This document shows, piece by piece, positions 4,555 to 64,000 of a DNA stretch of 64,000 bases. Below the pieces are notes generated by a model. That model saw nothing but the letters and a program-made list of their open reading frames with translations. It did no database searches and had not been told where the DNA came from. The DNA is from an uncultured Chitinophagaceae bacterium (lineage in GTDB: Bacteria > Bacteroidota > Bacteroidia > Chitinophagales > Chitinophagaceae), in assembly GCA_903870685.1 (NCBI GenBank), contig CAIQDX010000094.1, positions 1 to 64,000 on the forward strand, given 5' to 3'. The first letter of the stretch is position 1. Each line of letters starts with the position of its first letter. A program made the position numbers and the translations under genes.

Positions 4555-5163
4555 TTACAATGACTTAAACTGATACCCTTTTTCGTTAAAATATTTCAGC
4601 ACTTTTGGTAAAGTATAACTCATCCTATCCCATGCTTTTGCACTGTCATGAAAAACAATGATACTCCCATTTTTTGAATGATATAAAACATTTGCCAAAC
4701 AACGTTTCGGTTGCAAATTAATATCAAAGTCGCCGCTTAAAACATCCCACATGATAATTGACCATTGCTGATTTACAATCGATGATTGAAATCTTTTTAT
4801 TCTCCCATATGGTGGTCGAAATAAATTTGTATCGATTTCTTTCGATGCCATTGCAATATCATTAATATATTCTTCGTCATTTGTTTTCCAGCCATTCAAG
4901 TGATGGTAAGTATGATTACCAACTGCATGTCCTTCATCGATAATTCTTTTATAAATATCTCTATATTTCACGACATTTTTTCCAATGCAAAAAAATGTTG
5001 CTTTCGCATTATACTTTTTTAATTCATCCAACACAAATGGCGTTGCAGTTTCATGCGGGCCATCATCTAATGTTAGATACAATACTTTTTCGTCGGTATT
5101 GATCTTCCAGATGAATGAAGGATATAAAATGCGCAGCCACCAAGGCGTTTTTACAAAATACAT
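4555..5163 (-). CDS. Polysaccharide deacetylase (NodB homology domain, CE4)
   Basis: This 202-residue protein removes N- or O-acetyl groups from a cell-wall or other polysaccharide (family knowledge; the substrate is not known here). The CE4 motifs are in order: TLDDG at residues 31-35 (catalytic and metal Asp), HTYHH (metal His pair), RPPYG, DVLSGDFD, and IIVFHDS near the C-terminus. Nearly the whole protein is the NodB domain. There is no signal peptide, although the N-terminal WWLRILYPSFIW stretch is hydrophobic and could associate with the membrane. Bacteroidota genomes often carry such a short form. It is divergent from gltX, with a dispersed repeat lying between the two starts. Confidence 0.9.
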   Translation of the reverse strand: MYFVKTPWWLRILYPSFIWKINTDEKVLYLTLDDGPHETATPFVLDELKKYNAKATFFCIGKNVVKYRDIYKRIIDEGHAVGNHTYHHLNGWKTNDEEYINDIAMASKEIDTNLFRPPYGRIKRFQSSIVNQQWSIIMWDVLSGDFDINLQPKRCLANVLYHSKNGSIIVFHDSAKAWDRMSYTLPKVLKYFNEKGYQFKSL

Positions 5164-55138: not shown

Positions 55139-56023
55139 TTAGGACTTAAGCTGTTCTCCTAATTTTTTTATTTTGAAAATTGTATCAACCAAAGAAAATA
55201 AAATGCCCCAAACAGTAATTACAATTGAATAGGCCATTAATAATAACCAAATGGGCGATTTATCTCTTGTTGCAAAAAGTGTTCTTTTATTAAAATTATT
55301 TTCACCAACAAATTTTGCACCCCATGGCACTGATTGTTCTATAGATAAATTTCCATATTGATCATTGTCTTCGATCTTAGCAACTAAAGTTATATTTCCT
55401 TTAGCATCACCAGGAATACTATCTCTTTTAAAATCGGCAGATGTTTGTCCAAGCGAATCGGTTGTAAATGTTGCAGTTTCATTTACAGAAAGGTCAGCAT
55501 CTAAACGTCGTATTGCAATTTTTAATTCAACACCTTTAACAGGAGTCCAAGAAGTATCTTTCATTTCGAAAACTGTGGCTGTTATTTTTCTGTCGCTAGT
55601 TGTATCAATTAAAATTTTGGCTTTCCCAACAGTTAAATCAGCTTTAGAAGATTCGTATTTTTTATCACCCGCAAATGTTGCTAAAAAAGTATGTTTGATT
55701 GAACTGCTCCATTCATTTTTTAATGATGGAGGGATAATAGCAGTTGCTTCGCCTTTTCCATTCGTAACAACTTTTGCAATTAATGTTCCTGCAGAATCTT
55801 TATCTAAAAATAAATTAAGATTGATGCCACTTACCATTTGAAATTTACCATCTATTTTGGTTTTTACTTTTGCAAGTACATATGGAATTTTATTATTGCT
55901 AATAAAATAACTGAGTGAAATATTCAAGTCGCCTTTTTGTGCATCTTGCGACAAAGCATTATAGCTTGATAAAATAAAAATAATAGATAATGATGCTATA
56001 CAATTTTTAATCAGCAGTCTCAT
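55139..56023 (-). CDS. Membrane-anchored Ig-like protein of the NrfD operon, function unknown
   Basis: I do not recognise a named family. The 294-residue product has a signal peptide ending near NALSQ, then two beta-sandwich Ig-like domains (about 30-125 and 128-235). These carry phrases such as NGKGEATAIIPP and DSLGQTSADFKRD, like invasin-type (Big_1) repeats. One C-terminal membrane helix (PIWLLLMAYSIVITVWGILFS) is followed by a short basic cytoplasmic tail. It overlaps the end of the NrfD gene by 17 bases, so translation is coupled. It may be an accessory subunit or docking protein of the complex in the periplasm. Confidence 0.75.
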   Translation of the reverse strand: MRLLIKNCIASLSIIFILSSYNALSQDAQKGDLNISLSYFISNNKIPYVLAKVKTKIDGKFQMVSGINLNLFLDKDSAGTLIAKVVTNGKGEATAIIPPSLKNEWSSSIKHTFLATFAGDKKYESSKADLTVGKAKILIDTTSDRKITATVFEMKDTSWTPVKGVELKIAIRRLDADLSVNETATFTTDSLGQTSADFKRDSIPGDAKGNITLVAKIEDNDQYGNLSIEQSVPWGAKFVGENNFNKRTLFATRDKSPIWLLLMAYSIVITVWGILFSLVDTIFKIKKLGEQLKS

Positions 56024-57329
56024 GTTGTTCAGTTAAAGTTTCATGAATTGGAATGATTGGAAATATTCTTGAAAGAATAGTAATTACTAACAAAGCACCG
56101 GCTAATGAGCCTAACGCAATTGCCCATTCTTCCCAGCTTGGAAAATAATGACGATAACTATCAGGAACATTTGTCATTGGGAGAAAAGGATGCAACAAAG
56201 TTGGTGTTACAATTAAATAACGTTTAAACCATGCACCTATAACCACCATAATTCCTGCAACAAAAACAGGTAATGGTTTTCTTCCTCTTTTAAATAATAA
56301 AATAATAATGGGCAATATCATACCCACAAGAATTGCAAACCAAAATAGCGGAGCAAATTCACCTGTGAAAAGACCAGTTAAATGTGCTTCTTCTGATTTC
56401 TTCATTTTAAATGCAGGAACCAAATATTCGTTGATATTAAAATAAAGATAAAGTAACGCCAAAAGCACAACCATCTTTCCCATCTTTTCGAAATGCTCTT
56501 CTGTAATATATTTTTCGAGATGATATGCTTTTCTAAAAACATACATTGCAACAAGCACACCACCACCTCCAACTAAAAATGCACCGGAAATAAAGTAAGC
56601 ACCAAAGTTTGTACTATCCCAACCAGGACGATAAGTAGTTGCAAATAACCATGAAGTAACCGTGTGAATGGTAAATGCAACAGGAATAATAGTGATACAA
56701 AGAATATTAATTGCTCTTTCGCTTAATTTAAATTGTTCGGGAGTTCCCTTCCAGAATGAACCAAGAAAACTATAAAACTTTGCAAGGTATTTGAATCTAT
56801 TATCGTTGGTTTCTTTATAACGAAGTAAGATTTTAATATCGGGCAATAAAGGAAAATATAAAAGTAGAATACTAATAAAAAAGTAAGTAGTGATCACAAT
56901 CACATCCCAAATAATTGGTGATTGAACACGACCATGAATAAATAAATTATAGAATCTTTCCGGACTACCCATATCAACAATGATGATGATAGAAGCAAAT
57001 ATGATAGCAGCTACTGCAATTATTTCTGCAATTCTTGTTAGCGGTGTACTCCATTCAACACGTGATAATCTAAACACTGCCGTGATCAATGAACCAACTA
57101 AACTTATTGCTACAAAGAATACAAAGTTTGAAATATAAATACCCCAGGACACATAATCTCTCATTGATGTAACAACAAGACCATAACGTAATTGTCTGTA
57201 ATAAGCATACACACCTACCAAACAAATAGCTATTAAAACGCCTGTCCAGATTCTTCCGCTTCTATTAAATTTTTGCGGAAGTAGATCCTGTATTATTTTT
57301 TCGTCTGAAATTGAATTTAGATTTTCCAC
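56007..57329 (-). CDS. NrfD/PsrC-type membrane quinol dehydrogenase subunit
   Basis: This 440-residue polytopic protein has about nine to ten membrane helices, with YVSWGIYISNFVFFVAISLVG at the start and IVDMGSPERFYNLFIHGR, YFISGAFLVGGGG and GAWFKRYLIV later. This matches the NrfD family, whose members exchange electrons between menaquinol and a periplasmic ferredoxin-like subunit. The neighbouring Fe-S gene (17 bases upstream) is its expected partner. It could also be a relative of ActC of alternative complex III, but no ActA/B/D/E partners are seen here. The direction of electron flow is inferred, not shown. Confidence 0.88.
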   Translation of the reverse strand: MENLNSISDEKIIQDLLPQKFNRSGRIWTGVLIAICLVGVYAYYRQLRYGLVVTSMRDYVSWGIYISNFVFFVAISLVGSLITAVFRLSRVEWSTPLTRIAEIIAVAAIIFASIIIIVDMGSPERFYNLFIHGRVQSPIIWDVIVITTYFFISILLLYFPLLPDIKILLRYKETNDNRFKYLAKFYSFLGSFWKGTPEQFKLSERAINILCITIIPVAFTIHTVTSWLFATTYRPGWDSTNFGAYFISGAFLVGGGGVLVAMYVFRKAYHLEKYITEEHFEKMGKMVVLLALLYLYFNINEYLVPAFKMKKSEEAHLTGLFTGEFAPLFWFAILVGMILPIIILLFKRGRKPLPVFVAGIMVVIGAWFKRYLIVTPTLLHPFLPMTNVPDSYRHYFPSWEEWAIALGSLAGALLVITILSRIFPIIPIHETLTEQHETAD

Positions 57330-57345
57330 CTTTAATTATTTTAGT

Positions 57346-58281
57346 TTATTTTTTTTCTTTAGTATCTGTTTCAAGTCCTGATTCGAAAGGGAAGTTTCTG
57401 TTAACAGGAGGTAAATAATAAACACTTGGTTTAGTACCTAAATCTTCCATTAATCTATATCCAGATTTATCTTTTATTAAATCACTAAAACGGAAAGTTT
57501 CAGCACCATTACTAACAGTATCCTGATTTAAATCGCCAAAGAAGAATGTTCCGTTTGGACATGCTGAAACACAATGTGGTAATTCTCCTCTTCTTGCCAT
57601 ATCCGGACAAAAATCGCATTTACCAACTGTTCCTTTCTTTTGAGGAACACTGCTTTCGCAAGAATAAGGCTGTGCGGCAATATCTGCAGGAATATCAGGT
57701 GCTGACCAATTAAATGCTCTTGTTGAATATGGACATGCCGCCATACAAAAACGACAACCAATACAACGATCGCTATCAATTAAAACTATTCCATCTTGTC
57801 TTTTAAATGTTGCATCAACAGGACAAACTTTCACACATGGTGGTTCATCGCAATGCATACATGTTGTTGGTTGCCAAAAAGGAGCAGTGTGTTCATCTTC
57901 ACGCATTGGATCTACTTTGATCCAGTTTTGCCCTGTATTAACATGATGCATATGATTACATGCTTCCTGACACTTTCTTAAATTTTTACATCTTGAAAGA
58001 TCAATTACCATTACGAATTTTTTTCCTCCAATACCTATTCGAGCTTCACTGTTTGATACAGCAGGCAATTCAGGTACCGGTTTCAAAAACGCTTCATCAA
58101 CTTCAATTATTTCTCCATCAACTGATAAAAGTTTAACTTTCTTTCCGGAAGCAATAACTGTTTCATCAGCGCCAGATTCAAAAACATTTTTTTTAGAAGA
58201 GCAACCAACTCCAACAGCAACTCCCGCAGCCATCAAGCCGGTTAAAAGGAATTCTCTTCGCGAATTATTTTCTTGTTTCAT
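57346..58281 (-). CDS. Tat-exported 4Fe-4S ferredoxin-type electron-transfer subunit (DsrO/TtrB-like)
   Basis: The 311-residue product has Tat signal NSRREFLLTGL (Arg8-Arg9) and a lipobox-like GVGC (Cys27), so it is exported folded and may be lipid-anchored. Four cysteine groups bind four [4Fe-4S] clusters: CKNLRKCQEAC, CMHCDEPPCVKVCP, CIGCRFCMAACPY and CDFCP...CVSACP. Such subunits carry electrons between NrfD and a molybdopterin or cytochrome partner. Residues 52-67 (LLSVDGEIIEVDEAFL) resemble the small protein encoded upstream. The gene belongs to the FNR-like-controlled operon starting at 58582. Confidence 0.9.
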   Translation of the reverse strand: MKQENNSRREFLLTGLMAAGVAVGVGCSSKKNVFESGADETVIASGKKVKLLSVDGEIIEVDEAFLKPVPELPAVSNSEARIGIGGKKFVMVIDLSRCKNLRKCQEACNHMHHVNTGQNWIKVDPMREDEHTAPFWQPTTCMHCDEPPCVKVCPVDATFKRQDGIVLIDSDRCIGCRFCMAACPYSTRAFNWSAPDIPADIAAQPYSCESSVPQKKGTVGKCDFCPDMARRGELPHCVSACPNGTFFFGDLNQDTVSNGAETFRFSDLIKDKSGYRLMEDLGTKPSVYYLPPVNRNFPFESGLETDTKEKK

Positions 58282-58309
58282 TTCAAATATTTTGTAAAAA
58301 ACTTTCTAT

Positions 58310-58582
58310 TTATTTTTTAATCCAATTCTGAAGTTCAGTATTACTGATTTTTTTTCTGTTTGCAGTAATTAATGATTCATCAATTTCTACAAGTTTGCCA
58401 TCTTGTGTTAGCATGGTGATTGTTCTCTTTTTACTTTCAGGTTTACATGCGATTACATTTTTTCTAGCAAAAAATGGCAAAGCAGATACTACCGCTGCAA
58501 ACAGAGATAAAACACCAATACCCCATACAAATTTTCTTCTTGCAGGTGAAATTGTTTGCGTTATTTCTTCATTACTATTCAT
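58310..58582 (-). CDS. Small protein with Tat-like leader, related to the N-terminus of the Fe-S subunit
   Basis: The 90-residue product has SPARRKFVWGIG (Arg15-Arg16), a hydrophobic helix (about 18-38), a Cys at 46 and the segment MLTQDGKLVEIDESLI (57-72). Both the RR-x-F leader and this segment resemble the first 70 residues of the Fe-S protein 28 bases downstream (6 of 16 identical in the aligned segment). No cofactor motif is present. It is the first gene of the operon and may be a membrane-anchored assembly or small structural subunit. The function is unknown. Confidence 0.75.
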   Translation of the reverse strand: MNSNEEITQTISPARRKFVWGIGVLSLFAAVVSALPFFARKNVIACKPESKKRTITMLTQDGKLVEIDESLITANRKKISNTELQNWIKK

Positions 58583-58606
58583 AAATGTTTAAACTTTAAG
58601 TGAGGC

Positions 58607-58671
58607 CAAAATTAATAGAGCAAATCGTTGCAAATGATGATATTAATCAGATGATAAGATGATTAATGTCA
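58607..58671 (-). promoter_or_regulatory. NrfD operon promoter with tandem FNR-like boxes
   Basis: On the minus strand the -7 element TAATTTTG is at 58614-58607. Box 1, TGATATTAATCA (58638-58649), is a perfect TGAT-N4-ATCA centred 36.5 bp from the last base of the -7 element. Box 2, TGATTAATGTCA (58660-58671), has one mismatch and is centred 22 bp further. With a start about six bases after the element, box 1 sits near -42, the class II activator position. Confidence 0.65.
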
Positions 58672-58720
58672 TACTGAAAATAAATTTTTAAAAAAATAAA
58701 TATTTCAATGTTGAAACATA

Positions 58721-58751
58721 AAAAAAGGCTCGAAATATTTCGAACCTTTTT
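58721..58751 (-). terminator. Terminator of the cytochrome operon
   Basis: The stem pairs AAAAAGG (58722-58728) with CCTTTTT and TCGAAA (58730-58735) with TTTCGA, with one C-A mismatch. A T-run follows on the minus strand. Confidence 0.8.
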
Positions 58752-58768
58752 ATTGAATACATTATTAA

Positions 58769-59176
58769 CTATTTTTTTAGTGTGCGCATGAAGGTTACTA
58801 AATTCCAAATGTCTTCGGTATCAGGAATTTTTTTCTTAAAACTTGGCATATCATCTCTTCCAACTTCTACTTTATAAAAAAGAGAACCATCAGATTGAGA
58901 TTGGAAAGCTGCTTTTGAAAAATCACTTGGTTGTGTTTTTAATTGAGCTGCTTTACTTCCATCACCCAAACCTGTTTTACCATGACATGATGAACAATGA
59001 GTACCCCATAAAGTTTTACCGGCTGCAATAGATGCTGCACTTGATTTTACAGGATTAACTGTTTTTGCATCCTTATCAGGTGCATTCCATGGTTTTGGTT
59101 GTTGATCAATAGTAAATGCAACACTCATGAAACTAACAGCTAACAAAGAAGCAGCTAACATTAATTTTCTTTTCAT
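58769..59176 (-). CDS. Monoheme cytochrome c (periplasmic)
   Basis: This 135-residue class I cytochrome has a signal peptide ending near SVAF. The heme motif is Cys61-Ser-Ser-Cys64-His65 (canonical CxxCH) and the sixth ligand is probably Met110 in RDDMPSFKKK. It is an electron carrier in the periplasm. It is the last gene of the operon that begins with the ethylbenzene-dehydrogenase-like gene, and a terminator follows. Confidence 0.9.
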   Translation of the reverse strand: MKRKLMLAASLLAVSFMSVAFTIDQQPKPWNAPDKDAKTVNPVKSSAASIAAGKTLWGTHCSSCHGKTGLGDGSKAAQLKTQPSDFSKAAFQSQSDGSLFYKVEVGRDDMPSFKKKIPDTEDIWNLVTFMRTLKK

Positions 59177-59253
59177 TTAATTCTATTTTTTTATTAAAAA
59201 TTTTTACTTGCTCTACAAAATTAAAGAATAATTTTTTAATATTTTTTATCCAT

Positions 59254-60183
59254 TTAGAAATTCCACAATCTGCTAATGTTAAATCCAATCAGAAACTGAC
59301 CCTTTGTGTAATCGTTTTGATTAAACAAATTATTGTTTTGTGGTAACACATATCCGTAATTTCCGGCAAACACTTCAAAATCGTGACCACTTGATTTCAT
59401 TTCTAATCCAAAACTAATATTTGGATGAGGATTAGCCATTGGATGTTGAGTTAGCGGTTGATCATAGTTAAAGATGATGGCGGTTTTAGGTGCTATCTTA
59501 TATCTTGCAGAAAAAGAAATCGCTAAATGATCATTATTTAATTTAGGCATTACTTTTCCTGTAGCATCAGTATATCCTTCTAAATTATTAAAGTGAGTTA
59601 AACTTGGACTAACCTGTACAGAAAAGTTTTCAGTTACTTTTCTTGCAATGATTATTTGGCTAAAGAAACTAAAACGATCTGATGTATTTACAAACAAAGT
59701 TGTTGCATCTTTTTTTCTTGTATCCATTACAGCATTTCCAAAAAGGGTAATGCTTACCGGCATTTTATTATCCTTTGTTTGTTTTAACAAAGCATATTTA
59801 GCATTCCAGTCAACTTGCATTCTGTCGTTACAAGCACCAAATCCAACTTGAAAATCTTTGATCGGTGTATAACTAAATCCAAGTCTCATTGTTGCACTTG
59901 CAAATAAACCAAACAGATCAGTGAATTGATGATCCATTGTTCCAAACCTATGTTGAATATCAAATTCAAAAGTTCCTTTAATAGGCACCATTACAGTTTG
60001 GTTGTCTATCATATAGTTTCCTTCGAATGTATTTTTTACATAGGATTTCTTTTTTACTACAGGCGCTTCTGCAACTGTAGAATCCTGTGCCATCAAGCTA
60101 CTCAGACTTCCGCAGAGTACAATGAATAACAGTACTCTGATAAAACCGGTAGTTGATGATGAATAAATATTTTGTTTTTTCAT
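59254..60183 (-). CDS. DUF5777 family beta-barrel protein
   Basis: This 309-residue protein has a signal peptide ending near SLMAQ and a series of amphipathic beta strands ending in aromatic FNISRLWNF, as expected for an outer-membrane barrel. The phrases GTFEFDIQHRFGTMDHQF and PKTAIIFNYDQPLTQHP identify DUF5777. The function is unknown. Position inside a cytochrome operon, between two heme proteins, suggests a porin or scaffold for electron transfer across the outer membrane (inference). It has a paralogue at 62509. Confidence 0.82.
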   Translation of the reverse strand: MKKQNIYSSSTTGFIRVLLFIVLCGSLSSLMAQDSTVAEAPVVKKKSYVKNTFEGNYMIDNQTVMVPIKGTFEFDIQHRFGTMDHQFTDLFGLFASATMRLGFSYTPIKDFQVGFGACNDRMQVDWNAKYALLKQTKDNKMPVSITLFGNAVMDTRKKDATTLFVNTSDRFSFFSQIIIARKVTENFSVQVSPSLTHFNNLEGYTDATGKVMPKLNNDHLAISFSARYKIAPKTAIIFNYDQPLTQHPMANPHPNISFGLEMKSSGHDFEVFAGNYGYVLPQNNNLFNQNDYTKGQFLIGFNISRLWNF

Positions 60184-60194
60184 GAGTTGTTTTT

Positions 60195-60593
60195 TTAATT
60201 GTTGTTAGCACCTTGTTTTATCCAAGCAAGCATTATTGCATTAATATTTGATGGATTATTTTGACCACCTAATGGCATCGTAGCAGATTCTTTTCCGGTC
60301 ATCCATAAATAAACCAGACTTGTTGCCGGTGAGCCTGTACTAATATAATTTCCACTTTTTAATGCGTTATATGCTAATGTGCTTGATAAATTTGGCGCAA
60401 CAGATCCGCTATGACATCCTGTGGTGGCACAGCTTTTTGTTAATATTGGTACTATATCTTTTGAAAAGCTTACAGTTCCAGTTACTGCAGGTGAATTATC
60501 TACAAGTATTGTTGTTGTTTTAGTACAACTGAACATTGTAAACATTAATACTGCAGCCAGTAATAATTTCATTCCATTTATTTTCTTTGACAT
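60195..60593 (-). CDS. Cytochrome c-type lipoprotein with C-x4-CH heme motif
   Basis: This 132-residue lipoprotein has lipobox MFSC (Cys23). The heme motif is Cys55-ATTG-Cys60-His61, four residues between the cysteines instead of two. The likely sixth ligand is Met106 in SATMPLGG. Proteins of this kind are usually annotated as planctomycete-type cytochrome C in Bacteroidota. It lies 11 bases upstream of the DUF5777 gene. It is probably located at the outer or inner membrane, facing the periplasm or surface. Confidence 0.82.
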   Translation of the reverse strand: MSKKINGMKLLLAAVLMFTMFSCTKTTTILVDNSPAVTGTVSFSKDIVPILTKSCATTGCHSGSVAPNLSSTLAYNALKSGNYISTGSPATSLVYLWMTGKESATMPLGGQNNPSNINAIMLAWIKQGANNN

Positions 60594-60633
60594 GATCTTT
60601 ATTTTTAAAAATTATTGAAAGAACTGCCAAAAA

Positions 60634-62019
60634 TTATTTACCAAATGTCAAGGTCAAGTTTGGTTGAATACCATGTTGGTTATTAGATTTATTCCAGAAA
60701 GCAACACCAAATACTTGATCTTGTAAGCTTGAGAAATCAATATCCTGACTTAAAGCATCAGAAGTTTTTAATGCGCGTTTATATTCGATAGCCCAACCTG
60801 TACCAGTATAAACTGCTGCTGCTGTAATATCTGCTCTTCCACCAATTAATGGAACACCGATATAAGAAGGAATTGAATTTACTGCAGTTGGTCCAGTAAT
60901 TGGATCACCTGTTCTTTGATAAGCAGTACCAGTAGTAGGATCAAGTGTTGTATTATCAGCAAAAGTTAATACTCCTGTTGAAGCTACTTTTATTACTTTC
61001 TTTGCTTTACCACCGGCAAGTGTATCTGCTACTAAAACAAAATTTGCACTAGCAGTATTTGGATAAACCCAAATTGGAACAGCAACAGAAGCACCAGTAC
61101 CATCTAATTTTAAATTCTGAGAATTACTTACTTCACCTTGAGTTGGAGAAACTGTATAATTTGGTTTGTACGGCCAAGTTGTAGATTTTGTTCCGTCTGG
61201 TACAATACCATCAACGTGTCTTCCATTTAAATTACCACCTACTAAATTTGAAATAGCTTGACCACCTGCATAATCTTGGTAATTATCATCCACAAAACCA
61301 AGGCTTGCATCTCTAGAAATATATCCTAAACGACCCCACCACATATCAATTTTTTCGTTAGGTCCATTTGTATAGTGATTACCACTTCCAGAATTTGAAA
61401 CCATTCCTGGTGTTGTTGCAGTAGCAGGTGTTGCCAATACTCCTGAATAATCTAAATATGGAGTAAATACATGGCAACTTGCATAACATGTTTGTGTTGC
61501 AAATTTTGGAGTTGAGTTATTGATATTCCAAAGCATTGCAAATTTATCTTCACCAAAACAATCTCTTATTAAATTACCATTTACATCAAAAGATTTATTT
61601 GAAGGTTCTTTCTGCCATCCTGTAGCACCTGTCACATTCATCGCAGGATTAAAATACCATGGTGCAACGTTTATACTTTTATTAGCATCAGTTACTTCTA
61701 ATAAGAAATAAATATTACTACCGTCATACATTGATCTAAGTTTTGCAGGATATTGCTCGCCAATAAATCCAACAAAAAGACCATTACCCGGATCAGGTAC
61801 AGTAGGACTAAAAGTAATTGGTGTTGCATTAGCCCAAGCAGCATCAACAGTACCATCAATTGTAGGTGCGGTTGTTGTCTTATAAGACACTAATGTTGTT
61901 GAGTTACTACCTGAATCAGGAATAATAACCTGATCATTTTTTGTACAGCTTACTGCATATCCGATCAAACAAATTAAAGTTGAAAGGATCCAGAATTTGG
62001 TGTTTTGAAGAAGTTTCAT
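60634..62019 (-). CDS. Ethylbenzene dehydrogenase-like heme-binding lipoprotein
   Basis: This 461-residue lipoprotein has lipobox YAVSC (Cys25). The beta-rich domain matches the gamma-subunit family of DMSO reductase type II enzymes (ethylbenzene dehydrogenase, DMS dehydrogenase), with TIDGTVDAAWANATPI near residue 53 and GWAIEYKRALKTSD near the end. It also has CYASCH (about residues 177-182), a C-x3-CH heme c motif. No catalytic alpha subunit is encoded nearby. It is the first gene of the operon, with a promoter carrying tandem FNR-like boxes. Confidence 0.85.
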   Translation of the reverse strand: MKLLQNTKFWILSTLICLIGYAVSCTKNDQVIIPDSGSNSTTLVSYKTTTAPTIDGTVDAAWANATPITFSPTVPDPGNGLFVGFIGEQYPAKLRSMYDGSNIYFLLEVTDANKSINVAPWYFNPAMNVTGATGWQKEPSNKSFDVNGNLIRDCFGEDKFAMLWNINNSTPKFATQTCYASCHVFTPYLDYSGVLATPATATTPGMVSNSGSGNHYTNGPNEKIDMWWGRLGYISRDASLGFVDDNYQDYAGGQAISNLVGGNLNGRHVDGIVPDGTKSTTWPYKPNYTVSPTQGEVSNSQNLKLDGTGASVAVPIWVYPNTASANFVLVADTLAGGKAKKVIKVASTGVLTFADNTTLDPTTGTAYQRTGDPITGPTAVNSIPSYIGVPLIGGRADITAAAVYTGTGWAIEYKRALKTSDALSQDIDFSSLQDQVFGVAFWNKSNNQHGIQPNLTLTFGK

Positions 62020-62062
62020 AATTGAATTTTTATAGTTGTAGTTAAAACATTGTTTCAGAGAG

Positions 62063-62127
62063 CAAAACTAATGTGGCAACATTATCGTTAGAATGATTTT
62101 AATCAGAAAATTTAATGATATAAATCA
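62063..62127 (-). promoter_or_regulatory. Cytochrome operon promoter with tandem FNR-like boxes
   Basis: On the minus strand the -7 element TAGTTTTG is at 62070-62063. Box 1, TGATTTTAATCA (62094-62105), is centred 36.5 bp from its last base. Box 2, TGATATAAATCA (62116-62127), is centred 22 bp further. The geometry is the same as at 58607-58671. Confidence 0.68.
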
Positions 62128-62186: not shown

Positions 62187-62200
62187 ATGATAATTATCAT
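62187..62200. promoter_or_regulatory. Third FNR-like palindrome
   Basis: ATGATAATTATCAT is a perfect 14-bp palindrome containing TGAT-N4-ATCA. It lies 72 bp upstream of box 2. No promoter element is found at the matching distance on either strand. Confidence 0.35.
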
Positions 62201-62508: not shown

Positions 62509-63453
62509 CTATTGTGTTTTAACAACTCGTTTAATTCCGTAGCTCCTGTTCAAATTAAATCCTAAAGAGAAATTACCTAATCGTACTTCATTTGTATTAG
62601 TTGTTAGTTGTGCTATGTTAGTTGCAGCAGATGAACTTGTAAAGAAGAATTGGAAAATATGTCCGCCTGTATCCCAATCATATCCAAGTGAAAATAAATC
62701 GGGAACATAATTAACAGCAGATGCAGTTTCATCCAATAAATTTTTATATCCATTCAACTGACGAGAATATTCAAAACTAATTGCTGTTTTATGAGTTATT
62801 TTATATCTGCCACCAATACCTAAAGAAAAAATATTGTTGGTATTGTTTATTCCATAAGGAACATAATTGTAATGAATATATGATGGTGTTAATTGTAAAG
62901 AAAAGTTTTCATTGAATTTTCTTGCAACTAAAAGTTGATTAATAAAAGAAAATCTATTCCATGCAAAATCATTCGGACTTGGTCCTTCTGTTCCATCAAA
63001 ACTTGCGGATGAAAATAAACTTACTGTTATCGGAATATTTTTAGCTCCGGATTGTTGACGTAACAATTTAAATTTTGTCCATGTTTCATATTTAGAATTT
63101 CCTGTTGCAGCAAATCCTACATTCATCCAATTGGTAAATGAATAATCGAATGACATATATGTATTGGCAGCACCAGCATTCAATCCAAATAATTGTGCAA
63201 CATTTCCCCAACCTTTTCCATCTTTCCAAACACTTCCGAAACGATGGCTGATCATAAATTCTAAATTTCCTTTTCCGGTCATTTCTACACTTTGCATATT
63301 TATGATGCGTGTTGATTTAAAAGTTGCTGTTGCAATATTCTTTTTTACTTTGGCAGCATCATCTTTTACTAAATCGTTTAAAAGATCATCTTGCGCAAAT
63401 GCTTTCAACATGAAGCAAAATGTTACGATGAGATATACTAATATTTTTTTCAT
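62509..63453 (-). CDS. DUF5777 family beta-barrel protein, second copy
   Basis: This 314-residue outer-membrane barrel candidate has a signal peptide ending near KAFAQ. It shares with the copy at 59254 the pattern GKGNLEFMISHRFGSVW / FEFDIQHRFGTM, a central RFSFINQLLVARKFNENFSLQLTPS / RFSFFSQIIIARKVTENFSVQVSPS block and the closing FNLNRSYG / FNISRLW. It follows the YceI gene by 18 bases and is followed by a terminator. Confidence 0.82.
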   Translation of the reverse strand: MKKILVYLIVTFCFMLKAFAQDDLLNDLVKDDAAKVKKNIATATFKSTRIINMQSVEMTGKGNLEFMISHRFGSVWKDGKGWGNVAQLFGLNAGAANTYMSFDYSFTNWMNVGFAATGNSKYETWTKFKLLRQQSGAKNIPITVSLFSSASFDGTEGPSPNDFAWNRFSFINQLLVARKFNENFSLQLTPSYIHYNYVPYGINNTNNIFSLGIGGRYKITHKTAISFEYSRQLNGYKNLLDETASAVNYVPDLFSLGYDWDTGGHIFQFFFTSSSAATNIAQLTTNTNEVRLGNFSLGFNLNRSYGIKRVVKTQ

Positions 63454-63471: not shown

Positions 63472-64000
63472 TTAGTTTAATTGAAATTTTATTGTTGCAT
63501 CAATTGGTGTCAGGTCGGCCAATTTTGGTTTTACTAAACCTGGAATACCAATGTTATGGTCTTCGGCTTTAATTTTAAAATTGCAATAGAAGGTTGCAGT
63601 TTTTCCTTTTACTTCTAATTTAACCGGTGCTTTAAAATCTTTTGTAACACCATGCATGGTAACTTTTCCTTCGGATGAAAAATGATACACACCATCTTTT
63701 GTTAATTGATCTTTATTAAAGCCAATTAATTTCCCTGCAAATCTTGCATCAGGATATTTGTTTGATTCTAAATAATTTTCATTAAAATGTTCTTCCAATA
63801 AAGCATTATTAAAATGAAATGTTTTCATAGGAACTAAAAATGCAACATCACTTGTTTCAACTTTAAAAATTGCTGTTCCTTCTTTACTTGATGCTTCGTA
63901 ATCTTTATGAGTCAAATCTTTGTTAGGATTAAAGTAAACATAGCCATCTCTGGTTTTATACGTTTGAGCATTGATCAAATTCGCTAATAAGATGAATGAT
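63472..64000 (-). CDS. YceI family periplasmic protein (partial)
   Basis: This YceI/lipocalin-like protein binds isoprenoid or quinone-like lipids (family knowledge). The C-terminal part has KVTMHGVTKDFKAPVKLEVKGKT and ADLTPIDATIKFQLN, with FNNALLEEHFNENYL in the middle. The frame stays open to the window edge and reads SFILLANLINAQTYK, a signal peptide, so the true start lies just beyond 64000; an apparent TTG at 63978 is inside the signal peptide and is not the start. It is the first visible gene of the unit with the second DUF5777 barrel. Confidence 0.85.
   Translation of the reverse strand, partial: SFILLANLINAQTYKTRDGYVYFNPNKDLTHKDYEASSKEGTAIFKVETSDVAFLVPMKTFHFNNALLEEHFNENYLESNKYPDARFAGKLIGFNKDQLTKDGVYHFSSEGKVTMHGVTKDFKAPVKLEVKGKTATFYCNFKIKAEDHNIGIPGLVKPKLADLTPIDATIKFQLN

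Follow-up and report, generated by a model that had tools for sequence, protein, structure and literature searches.

The FixL-FixJ-FixK cascade of rhizobia links a heme-PAS kinase, a response regulator and CRP/FNR-type DNA binding to a cbb3 oxidase target. In E. coli, the FNR site lies at most 4 nt from position -41.5 in 19 of the 23 directly activated promoters with known transcription starts, and 89% of the chromatin immunoprecipitation (ChIP) peaks in the direct FNR regulon are single-site (excerpts of PMC3688515). The consensus boxes of FNR and DNR have a T before TGA, the DNR box being CTTGATnnnnATCAAG, and the HcpR2 regulators of Bacteroides and Porphyromonas have predicted regulons of hcp genes only, in most Bacteroides species and P. 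gingivalis (excerpts of PMC1274295). Among the Herbaspirillum regulators, Fnr1 and Fnr3 act on the same promoters, and the Fnr3 motif, which is changed at the flanking T, is a precedent for such a departure (excerpts of PMC5934665). Finally, the mapped starts of Flavobacterium psychrophilum place the sigmaA element TAnnTTTG at -12 to -5, and oxygen limitation induces the cbb3 oxidase and heme synthesis in this species (excerpts of PMC9723704). Here we analyze the promoters of two neighboring operons, an NrfD operon and a cytochrome operon headed by an EB_dh gene, in a 64,000-nt stretch of DNA (the window, C94:1-64000) from an uncultured Chitinophagaceae bacterium (assembly GCA_903870685.1, 3.18 Mb in 147 contigs). 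Both promoters probably belong to a low-oxygen regulon with class II activation, a known mode of action, and with operators that could be read by an Fe-S FNR-type protein, by a response regulator with a CRP-type output domain (receiver-CRP), or by both.

The two promoters, read on the minus strand directly and by a pattern search, are built alike. Upstream of the NrfD operon, the -7 element TAATTTTG (58607..58614; predicted +1 at 58602) is preceded by the perfect box 1 TGATTAATATCA (58638..58649) and by box 2 TGACATTAATCA (58660..58671), which has one mismatch. Upstream of the cytochrome operon, the -7 element TAGTTTTG (62063..62070; predicted +1 at 62058) is preceded by two perfect boxes, TGATTAAAATCA (box 1, 62094..62105) and TGATTTATATCA (box 2, 62116..62127). 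The geometry claimed in the earlier note, namely 36.5 bp between the last base of TAnnTTTG and the centre of a TGAT-N4-ATCA box, and another 22 bp to the centre of a second box, with three of the four boxes perfect, was thus confirmed at both promoters. Since TAnnTTTG spans -12 to -5 in F. psychrophilum (excerpts of PMC9723704), boxes 1 and 2 are predicted to be centred at -41.5 and -63.5, respectively, which supports the class II placement near -42 suggested earlier: a palindromic site of the CRP/FNR kind lies about 41.5 bp upstream of the predicted +1. A further perfect palindromic box, TGATAATTATCA (62188..62199, no strand assigned), lies outside the paired design, 94 bp upstream of box 1 of the cytochrome operon; it was not retained in either of the two relatives from the genus whose EB_dh promoter can be aligned.

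The box alone is frequent in the window (75 matches with at most one mismatch versus a mean of 60 in shuffled sequences), so the weight of the observation rests on the geometry. We generated 1000 first-order Markov copies of the window and searched them for sites comprising a perfect box, a TAnnTTTG element at a gap of 13-33 and, at a spacing of 18-30, another box that was perfect or had one mismatch. A single full site occurred in two copies and two sites with a common geometry in none, and a chance origin of the two like promoters, already considered hard to accept in the earlier note, was rejected. The design resembles E. coli FNR class II promoters in the TGAT-N4-ATCA core and in the predicted centre at -41.5, and differs from them in the 22-bp pairs, the TAnnTTTG -7 element and the outer base of the box. 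Given that E. coli FNR peaks are mostly single-site (excerpts of PMC3688515), the regular tandem is the unusual part of the design. With the Flavobacterium sigmaA promoters it shares TAnnTTTG at -12 to -5, the TAnnTTGY variant and a cbb3 oxidase induced by oxygen limitation, whereas no upstream FNR-type box was found in the available part of their description (PMC9723704).

The symmetrised motif is ATGAY-N4-RTCAT. Among 144 half-sites, the base preceding TGA is A in 75, C in 30, T in 21 and G in 18, and we therefore rejected identity with the canonical E. coli FNR box TTGAT-N4-ATCAA, in which the outer bases are T and A. The description of the boxes as FNR-like holds for the TGAT-N4-ATCA core; it fails for the outer T, and receiver-CRP is also a candidate reader. 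The HcpR2 regulators are CRP/FNR-family proteins of the same phylum, but their motif is GTAACnnnnGTTAC (excerpts of PMC1274295), and the TGAY-N4-RTCA sites found here do not follow the pattern GTAAC-N4-GTTAC.

A genome-wide search for an exact box followed by N23 and TAnnTTTG, as proposed in the earlier note, returned three places, namely the two window promoters and C90:6460. Pairs of TGAY-N4-RTCA boxes at 22 bp with at most two mismatches occur at 24 places in the source genome, compared with 10 for a reversed control. All 24 were examined, and nine possess an exact TAnnTTTG or TAnnTTGY at N23 or N24; their target families were assigned by Pfam and domain scans, and some operon memberships by gene order. 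Besides the NrfD operon (C94:58638) and the EB_dh operon (C94:62094), the nine precede a cytochrome-like gene followed, by gene order, by a second small gene, YceI and DUF5777 (C94:66022); a 55-aa open reading frame (ORF) followed by ccoN with a FixO domain, i.e. ccoNO of the cbb3 oxidase (C109:1978, 1978-2011); an operon with a CPx-type ATPase (C109:5096, 5096-5129); YceI (C61:11121); cytochrome c, with the element at N24 (C61:14291); a 131-aa gene without known family beside a two-component pair (C120:37494); and pyruvate phosphate dikinase (PPDK; C145:57389). The other 15 places, including C28:17570, C8:30474 and weaker ones, lack an exact -7 element at N23/N24 and were not counted as regulon members. 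One of these 15 was kept as a probable member; it is a triple box with 22-bp steps at C6:776/798/820 with a one-mismatch element at N24, located before a paralogous Fe-S/NrfD/EB_dh/DUF5777/cytochrome operon. The like geometry before ccoNO, the CPx-ATPase operon, PPDK and cytochrome genes supports the claim that the two operons belong to one regulon.

Conservation within the genus was assessed by promoter alignment, with five members for the NrfD promoter and three alignable members, including two relatives, for the EB_dh promoter; loci L091, L092 and L093 were treated, judging by the length of the contigs and the position on them, as the same contigs as L237, L238 and L239 and counted once. 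At the NrfD promoter, box 1 has zero or one mismatch in 5/5 members, box 2 has at most one mismatch in 2/5, and TAnnTTTG is exact in 2/5. The EB_dh promoter has two perfect boxes 22 bp apart in 3/3 members despite changes of letters within and around them, and the -7 element has one mismatch in both aligned relatives.

The geometry recurs well beyond the genus. In 29 genomes of relatives, with the gap between boxes left free from 0 to 30 (31 gaps, palindrome strands counted once, hand tally), 18 of the 28 exact box pairs are at 22 bp (N10), spread over 12 genomes. Among 395 genomes of the phylum, with both gaps free (341 gap combinations), an exact match to the layout was found at 19 places, with no match in 381 genomes; 11 of the 19 have exactly N10 and N23, and 14 have N23. 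These 19 places include repeats: one pair in G409 and one in G107 each appear on both strands, the two places in G130 share one sequence, and G201, G342 and G350 represent one genus. Single boxes show the same offset, with 38 of 88 at N23 from TAnnTTTG (19 genomes, 11 gaps allowed). We further collected 80 loci with homologs of the Fe-S gene, which are mutually non-independent and in some cases short, and counted identical pair sequences once. They contain 40 pairs at 22 bp (36 intergenic, in 32 loci); the remaining 47 distances between 13 and 60 bp add up to 57 pairs, 20 of them intergenic. Intergenic pairs have an exact TAnnTTTG at N23 nine times and at any other offset at most once; when pairs inside genes are included, offset 45 gives three. 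The TAnnTTGY class, which resembles motif SM5 of F. psychrophilum, is clear at tandem sites, where 8 of its 10 elements in the 80 loci lie at N23, and weak for single boxes (11 of 65). In the cultivated relative Ferruginibacter paludis, locus L168 has a box pair with one mismatch per box and TATCTTGT at N23. In locus L189 (G185:C43), four boxes follow one another at intervals of 22, 23 and 22 bp, and the first of them has a single mismatch. The row precedes a CPx-ATPase-like gene and has a PAS kinase in its vicinity; arrays can thus exceed two boxes.

Targets in relatives were taken from sites in 29 loci, with 21 nearby proteins scanned against Pfam. They include ccoNO, the divergent genes for glutamyl-tRNA reductase and ferrochelatase, PFOR, PPDK_N proteins (two cases, one of them preceded by a baeRF-family gene), Usp (one case), Hsp20 (three cases), N2O reductase with a small gene in front of it, cytochrome c and, in G417, a repair protein of the ScdA_N/hemerythrin type with a multicopper-oxidase/cytochrome gene in divergent orientation. 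In L196 the tandem site does not lie upstream of the Usp gene, which was excluded from the count. Two sites (L183 and L188) precede PAS kinases with a PAS domain of the heme type, as judged by sequence. Four of the 21 scanned proteins (L181, the small gene of L187, L190 and the arylsulfotransferase of L185) have no family at threshold or a role without a recognized low-oxygen link. The occurrence of the geometry before PFOR, heme-synthesis, Usp, Hsp20 and repair-protein genes extends support for a single regulon to the relatives. Because a like layout recurs before genes typical of low oxygen, it looks like an undescribed low-oxygen control circuit.

The source genome encodes four proteins with a Crp-type helix-turn-helix (HTH) domain. 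One is an FNR-type protein with an N-terminal CxxC-x8-C motif, CQTCAQKNASVFC, located beside oxidase genes (C109:5165-5887); the Fnr model aligns from its residue 14. Its cysteine spacing is x8, compared with x5 in E. coli FNR, and a cysteine in its THICFIP segment can tentatively be equated by eye with E. coli C122. The CxxC-x8-C motif is present in five genus members, G409, G298 and G019, and CxxC only in five genomes of family f16. Another is a response regulator with receiver, cNMP_binding and HTH_Crp_2 domains (C120:37982-39043), paired with a FixL-like heme-PAS histidine kinase (C120:39036-40274). The best matches of the kinase PAS domain in the Protein Data Bank (PDB) are FixL and also DosP, and the proximal histidine is aligned in all 33 PAS rows listed besides FixL (six of them duplicates); by sequence, this is a putative heme PAS with the proximal histidine of FixL-type kinases. 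The recognition helices of the two candidate regulators are nearly identical, GTATESTIRLLSEFK in the C109 protein and GIATESTIRTLSDFK in the C120 protein. The Crp protein of contig C31 was rejected as a reader by its clearly different recognition helix (by eye).

The C120 pair shares with the FixL-FixJ-FixK cascade a heme-PAS kinase, a response regulator, a CRP/FNR-type DNA-binding domain and, among the candidate targets, a cbb3 oxidase. In place of the LuxR-type output of FixJ, its regulator has cNMP_binding and HTH_Crp_2 domains; with the receiver and the CRP-type domain in one protein, what FixJ and FixK do in two steps would be merged into one. Herbaspirillum Fnr1 and Fnr3 are similar to the C109 and C120 candidates as two FNR-type proteins on the same promoters, one of them with a motif altered at the flanking T; they have a hybrid site and proposed heterodimers of their own, and neither a receiver-CRP nor a 22-bp tandem was found in the excerpts of that study (PMC5934665).

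Genomes with the tandem layout tend to encode receiver-CRP. Its full-length form is present in 12/12 relatives with an exact 22-bp pair versus 9/17 without (p 0.006, uncorrected for relatedness). At the level of the class, tested on 80 of 98 class-level genomes within the 395-genome set, receiver-CRP accompanies the free-gap layout in 10/11 genomes versus 37/69 without it (one-sided p 0.018, again uncorrected). In total, 25 genomes have an exact pair, either at 22 bp in the 29-genome set or at any gap in the 395-genome set; receiver-CRP is present in 23 of these, and in 20 of the 22 with pairs at exactly 22 bp. In 12 of the 25, the match to the FNR-type protein extends at least as far towards the N-terminus as residue 14; in the other 13 it stops short of this residue.

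Taken together, these data suggest the following mechanism. A dimer bound to box 1 at -41.5 would contact RNA polymerase beside the TAnnTTTG (sometimes TAnnTTGY) element of a Bacteroidota sigmaA promoter, and a second dimer at -63.5, two helical turns upstream on the same face of the DNA, could provide extra contacts or cooperativity; class II activation from box 1 with such help from box 2 is the most likely mode. We favor the reading that both the C109 and the C120 regulators, rather than one of them, act at the operators of both window promoters, possibly with a division of labor. Low oxygen would activate the FNR-type protein through assembly of its Fe-S cluster and receiver-CRP through phosphorylation, and expression of the operons would rise in response; that the signal is oxygen rather than nitric oxide (NO) or redox state is suggested by the target genes and the candidate regulators. 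More tentatively, and with somewhat less than even confidence, we propose a Bacteroidota low-oxygen regulon with its own grammar, i.e. ATGAY-N4-RTCAT boxes in phased arrays that begin at -41.5 and advance in 22-bp steps. Its ancestral reader may have been a one-protein FixJ-FixK, the receiver-CRP driven by the FixL-like heme kinase, which an Fe-S FNR with the same helix would have joined or replaced in some lineages, so that two oxygen sensors address one code. In the openly licensed literature (most subscription journals are outside this scope), we found no description of the operator layout, of the receiver-CRP/FixL pair in Bacteroidota, or of an oxygen regulon of this kind in the phylum; the available part of PMC8510549 contains nothing on a tandem layout. 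Now that the operator is precisely defined, its targets are listed and two candidate regulators are named, a low-oxygen regulon in much of the phylum can be put to a direct test. Should both regulators recognize one code, a heme phosphorelay and Fe-S chemistry would converge on the same DNA sites.

Several observations weigh against this interpretation. An exact 22-bp pair is absent from 17 of the 29 relatives, and a 22-bp pair from 48 of the 80 homologous loci, some of which are short; box 2 of the NrfD promoter is degenerate in three of the five genus members. The C109 protein scores 96.3 bits against the curated NCBIfam Fnr model, below the cut-off of 228, yet this is its best-scoring model. 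The FG-loop arginine of FixL is replaced by methionine in the source genus and is present in many other rows. A third Crp protein, encoded on contig C49, keeps the E-x-x-I-R helix pattern (by eye) and is another possible reader. With the strict N10 plus N23/N24 layout, the association with receiver-CRP is 7/8 versus 40/72 (p 0.08, relatedness uncorrected), and the link between receiver-CRP and the tandem layout is only moderate. The two exact-pair genomes that lack receiver-CRP, G298 and G409, possess an FNR-type protein with CxxC-x8-C.

These two genomes are also consistent with the view that the Fe-S FNR-type protein is the sole reader and receiver-CRP has other targets. The tandem promoter at C109:5096-5129, directly after the FNR-type gene, points in the same direction, as does the one at C109:1978-2011, about 3 kb away. 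We nevertheless regard this view as unlikely. In 13 of the 25 genomes with tandem pairs, all of them with receiver-CRP, the FNR-type matches begin at residue numbers of at least 17, past the first cysteine; three of the 13 (G008, G011 and G126) encode a further Cys-rich Crp protein, whose helix differs. Moreover, among receiver-CRP genomes, seven of 27 N10 places (hand tally) lie within 3 kb of the receiver-CRP gene, three of the seven being from one genus, whereas about 0.1 would be expected under an assumed rate. A regulon of the DNR or NnrR type, in which the boxes answer to NO instead of oxygen, appears less probable still. The DNR box CTTGATnnnnATCAAG is similar (excerpts of PMC1274295), and N2O reductase genes have sites nearby in G409 and, in the form of one box with one mismatch, in the source genome, as do the repair-protein and multicopper-oxidase/cytochrome genes of G417; however, the outer T of the DNR consensus is not favored here, and the other targets with an annotation comprise cbb3 oxidase, heme synthesis, PPDK, PFOR, Usp and Hsp20.

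Two further alternatives concern the boxes themselves. Box 2 might be a non-functional relic or chance neighbor in ordinary single-site class II promoters, as would fit the frequent single boxes at N23, the decay of box 2 at the NrfD promoter and the mostly single-site peaks of E. coli FNR (excerpts of PMC3688515). The sharp 22-bp peak in two samples, the intergenic enrichment of these pairs and the 22-bp steps of the C6 triple array argue against this explanation, which we consider improbable. A site near -41.5 can also overlap an upstream promoter element, and the boxes could accordingly be read as repressor operators. This is the least credible of the alternatives, and we give it very little weight: -41.5 is the usual position for class II activation (excerpts of PMC3688515), and the F. 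psychrophilum cbb3 oxidase is induced by oxygen limitation (excerpts of PMC9723704).

Both window operons are encoded on the minus strand. The NrfD operon begins with a 90-aa ORF without a Pfam or NCBIfam match (58310..58582), followed by a 4Fe-4S electron-transfer subunit (57346..58281; nearest DsrO, 188 bits, cut-off 200), an NrfD-family membrane subunit (56007..57329; nearest NCBIfam model DsrP, 140.5 bits, cut-off 350) and a 294-aa ORF without a family match (55139..56023). The cytochrome operon starts with a protein of the EB_dh domain, the ethylbenzene dehydrogenase heme-subunit family (60634..62019), followed by a small putative cytochrome without a Pfam match (60195..60593; C-x4-CH motif by eye), a DUF5777 beta-barrel family protein (59254..60183) and a c-type cytochrome (58769..59176). 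The Fe-S/NrfD pair together with EB_dh, the cytochromes and the DUF5777 barrel could form an electron route out of the quinol pool. A neighboring operon, also on the minus strand, includes a YceI family gene (63472..63999, running on to C94:64026) and a DUF5777 gene (62509..63453), which is probably its last by gene order; its tandem promoter (C94:65991-66055) lies outside the window. The gene at C94:64702-65991 could not be supported as a second EB_dh gene by Pfam, where its only match is PSCyt1 (E 0.0003, just below the cut-off), and its product is called cytochrome-like on this basis.

Among other observations in the source genome, a gene for a protein with the propeller domain of nitrous oxide reductase and a different Crp-type gene face each other in locus L048 (C49:26730-30140) across a box with one mismatch; beyond the Crp gene lies a perfect box that has TAATTTGC at N23. 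The 131-aa ORF of locus L050 (C120:37578-37973), which has no Pfam family, lies beside the receiver-CRP gene and has its own tandem promoter; in L179, a protein resembling it (by eye) is encoded after a Usp gene that has tandem sites. Finally, the NrfD and cytochrome operons (55139-62019) have a paralogous counterpart on contig C6 (L046, C6:1035-7676), where the genes form one operon behind the single triple-box promoter; the nearest models for the Fe-S/NrfD pair are DsrO/DsrP, with scores below the cut-offs.

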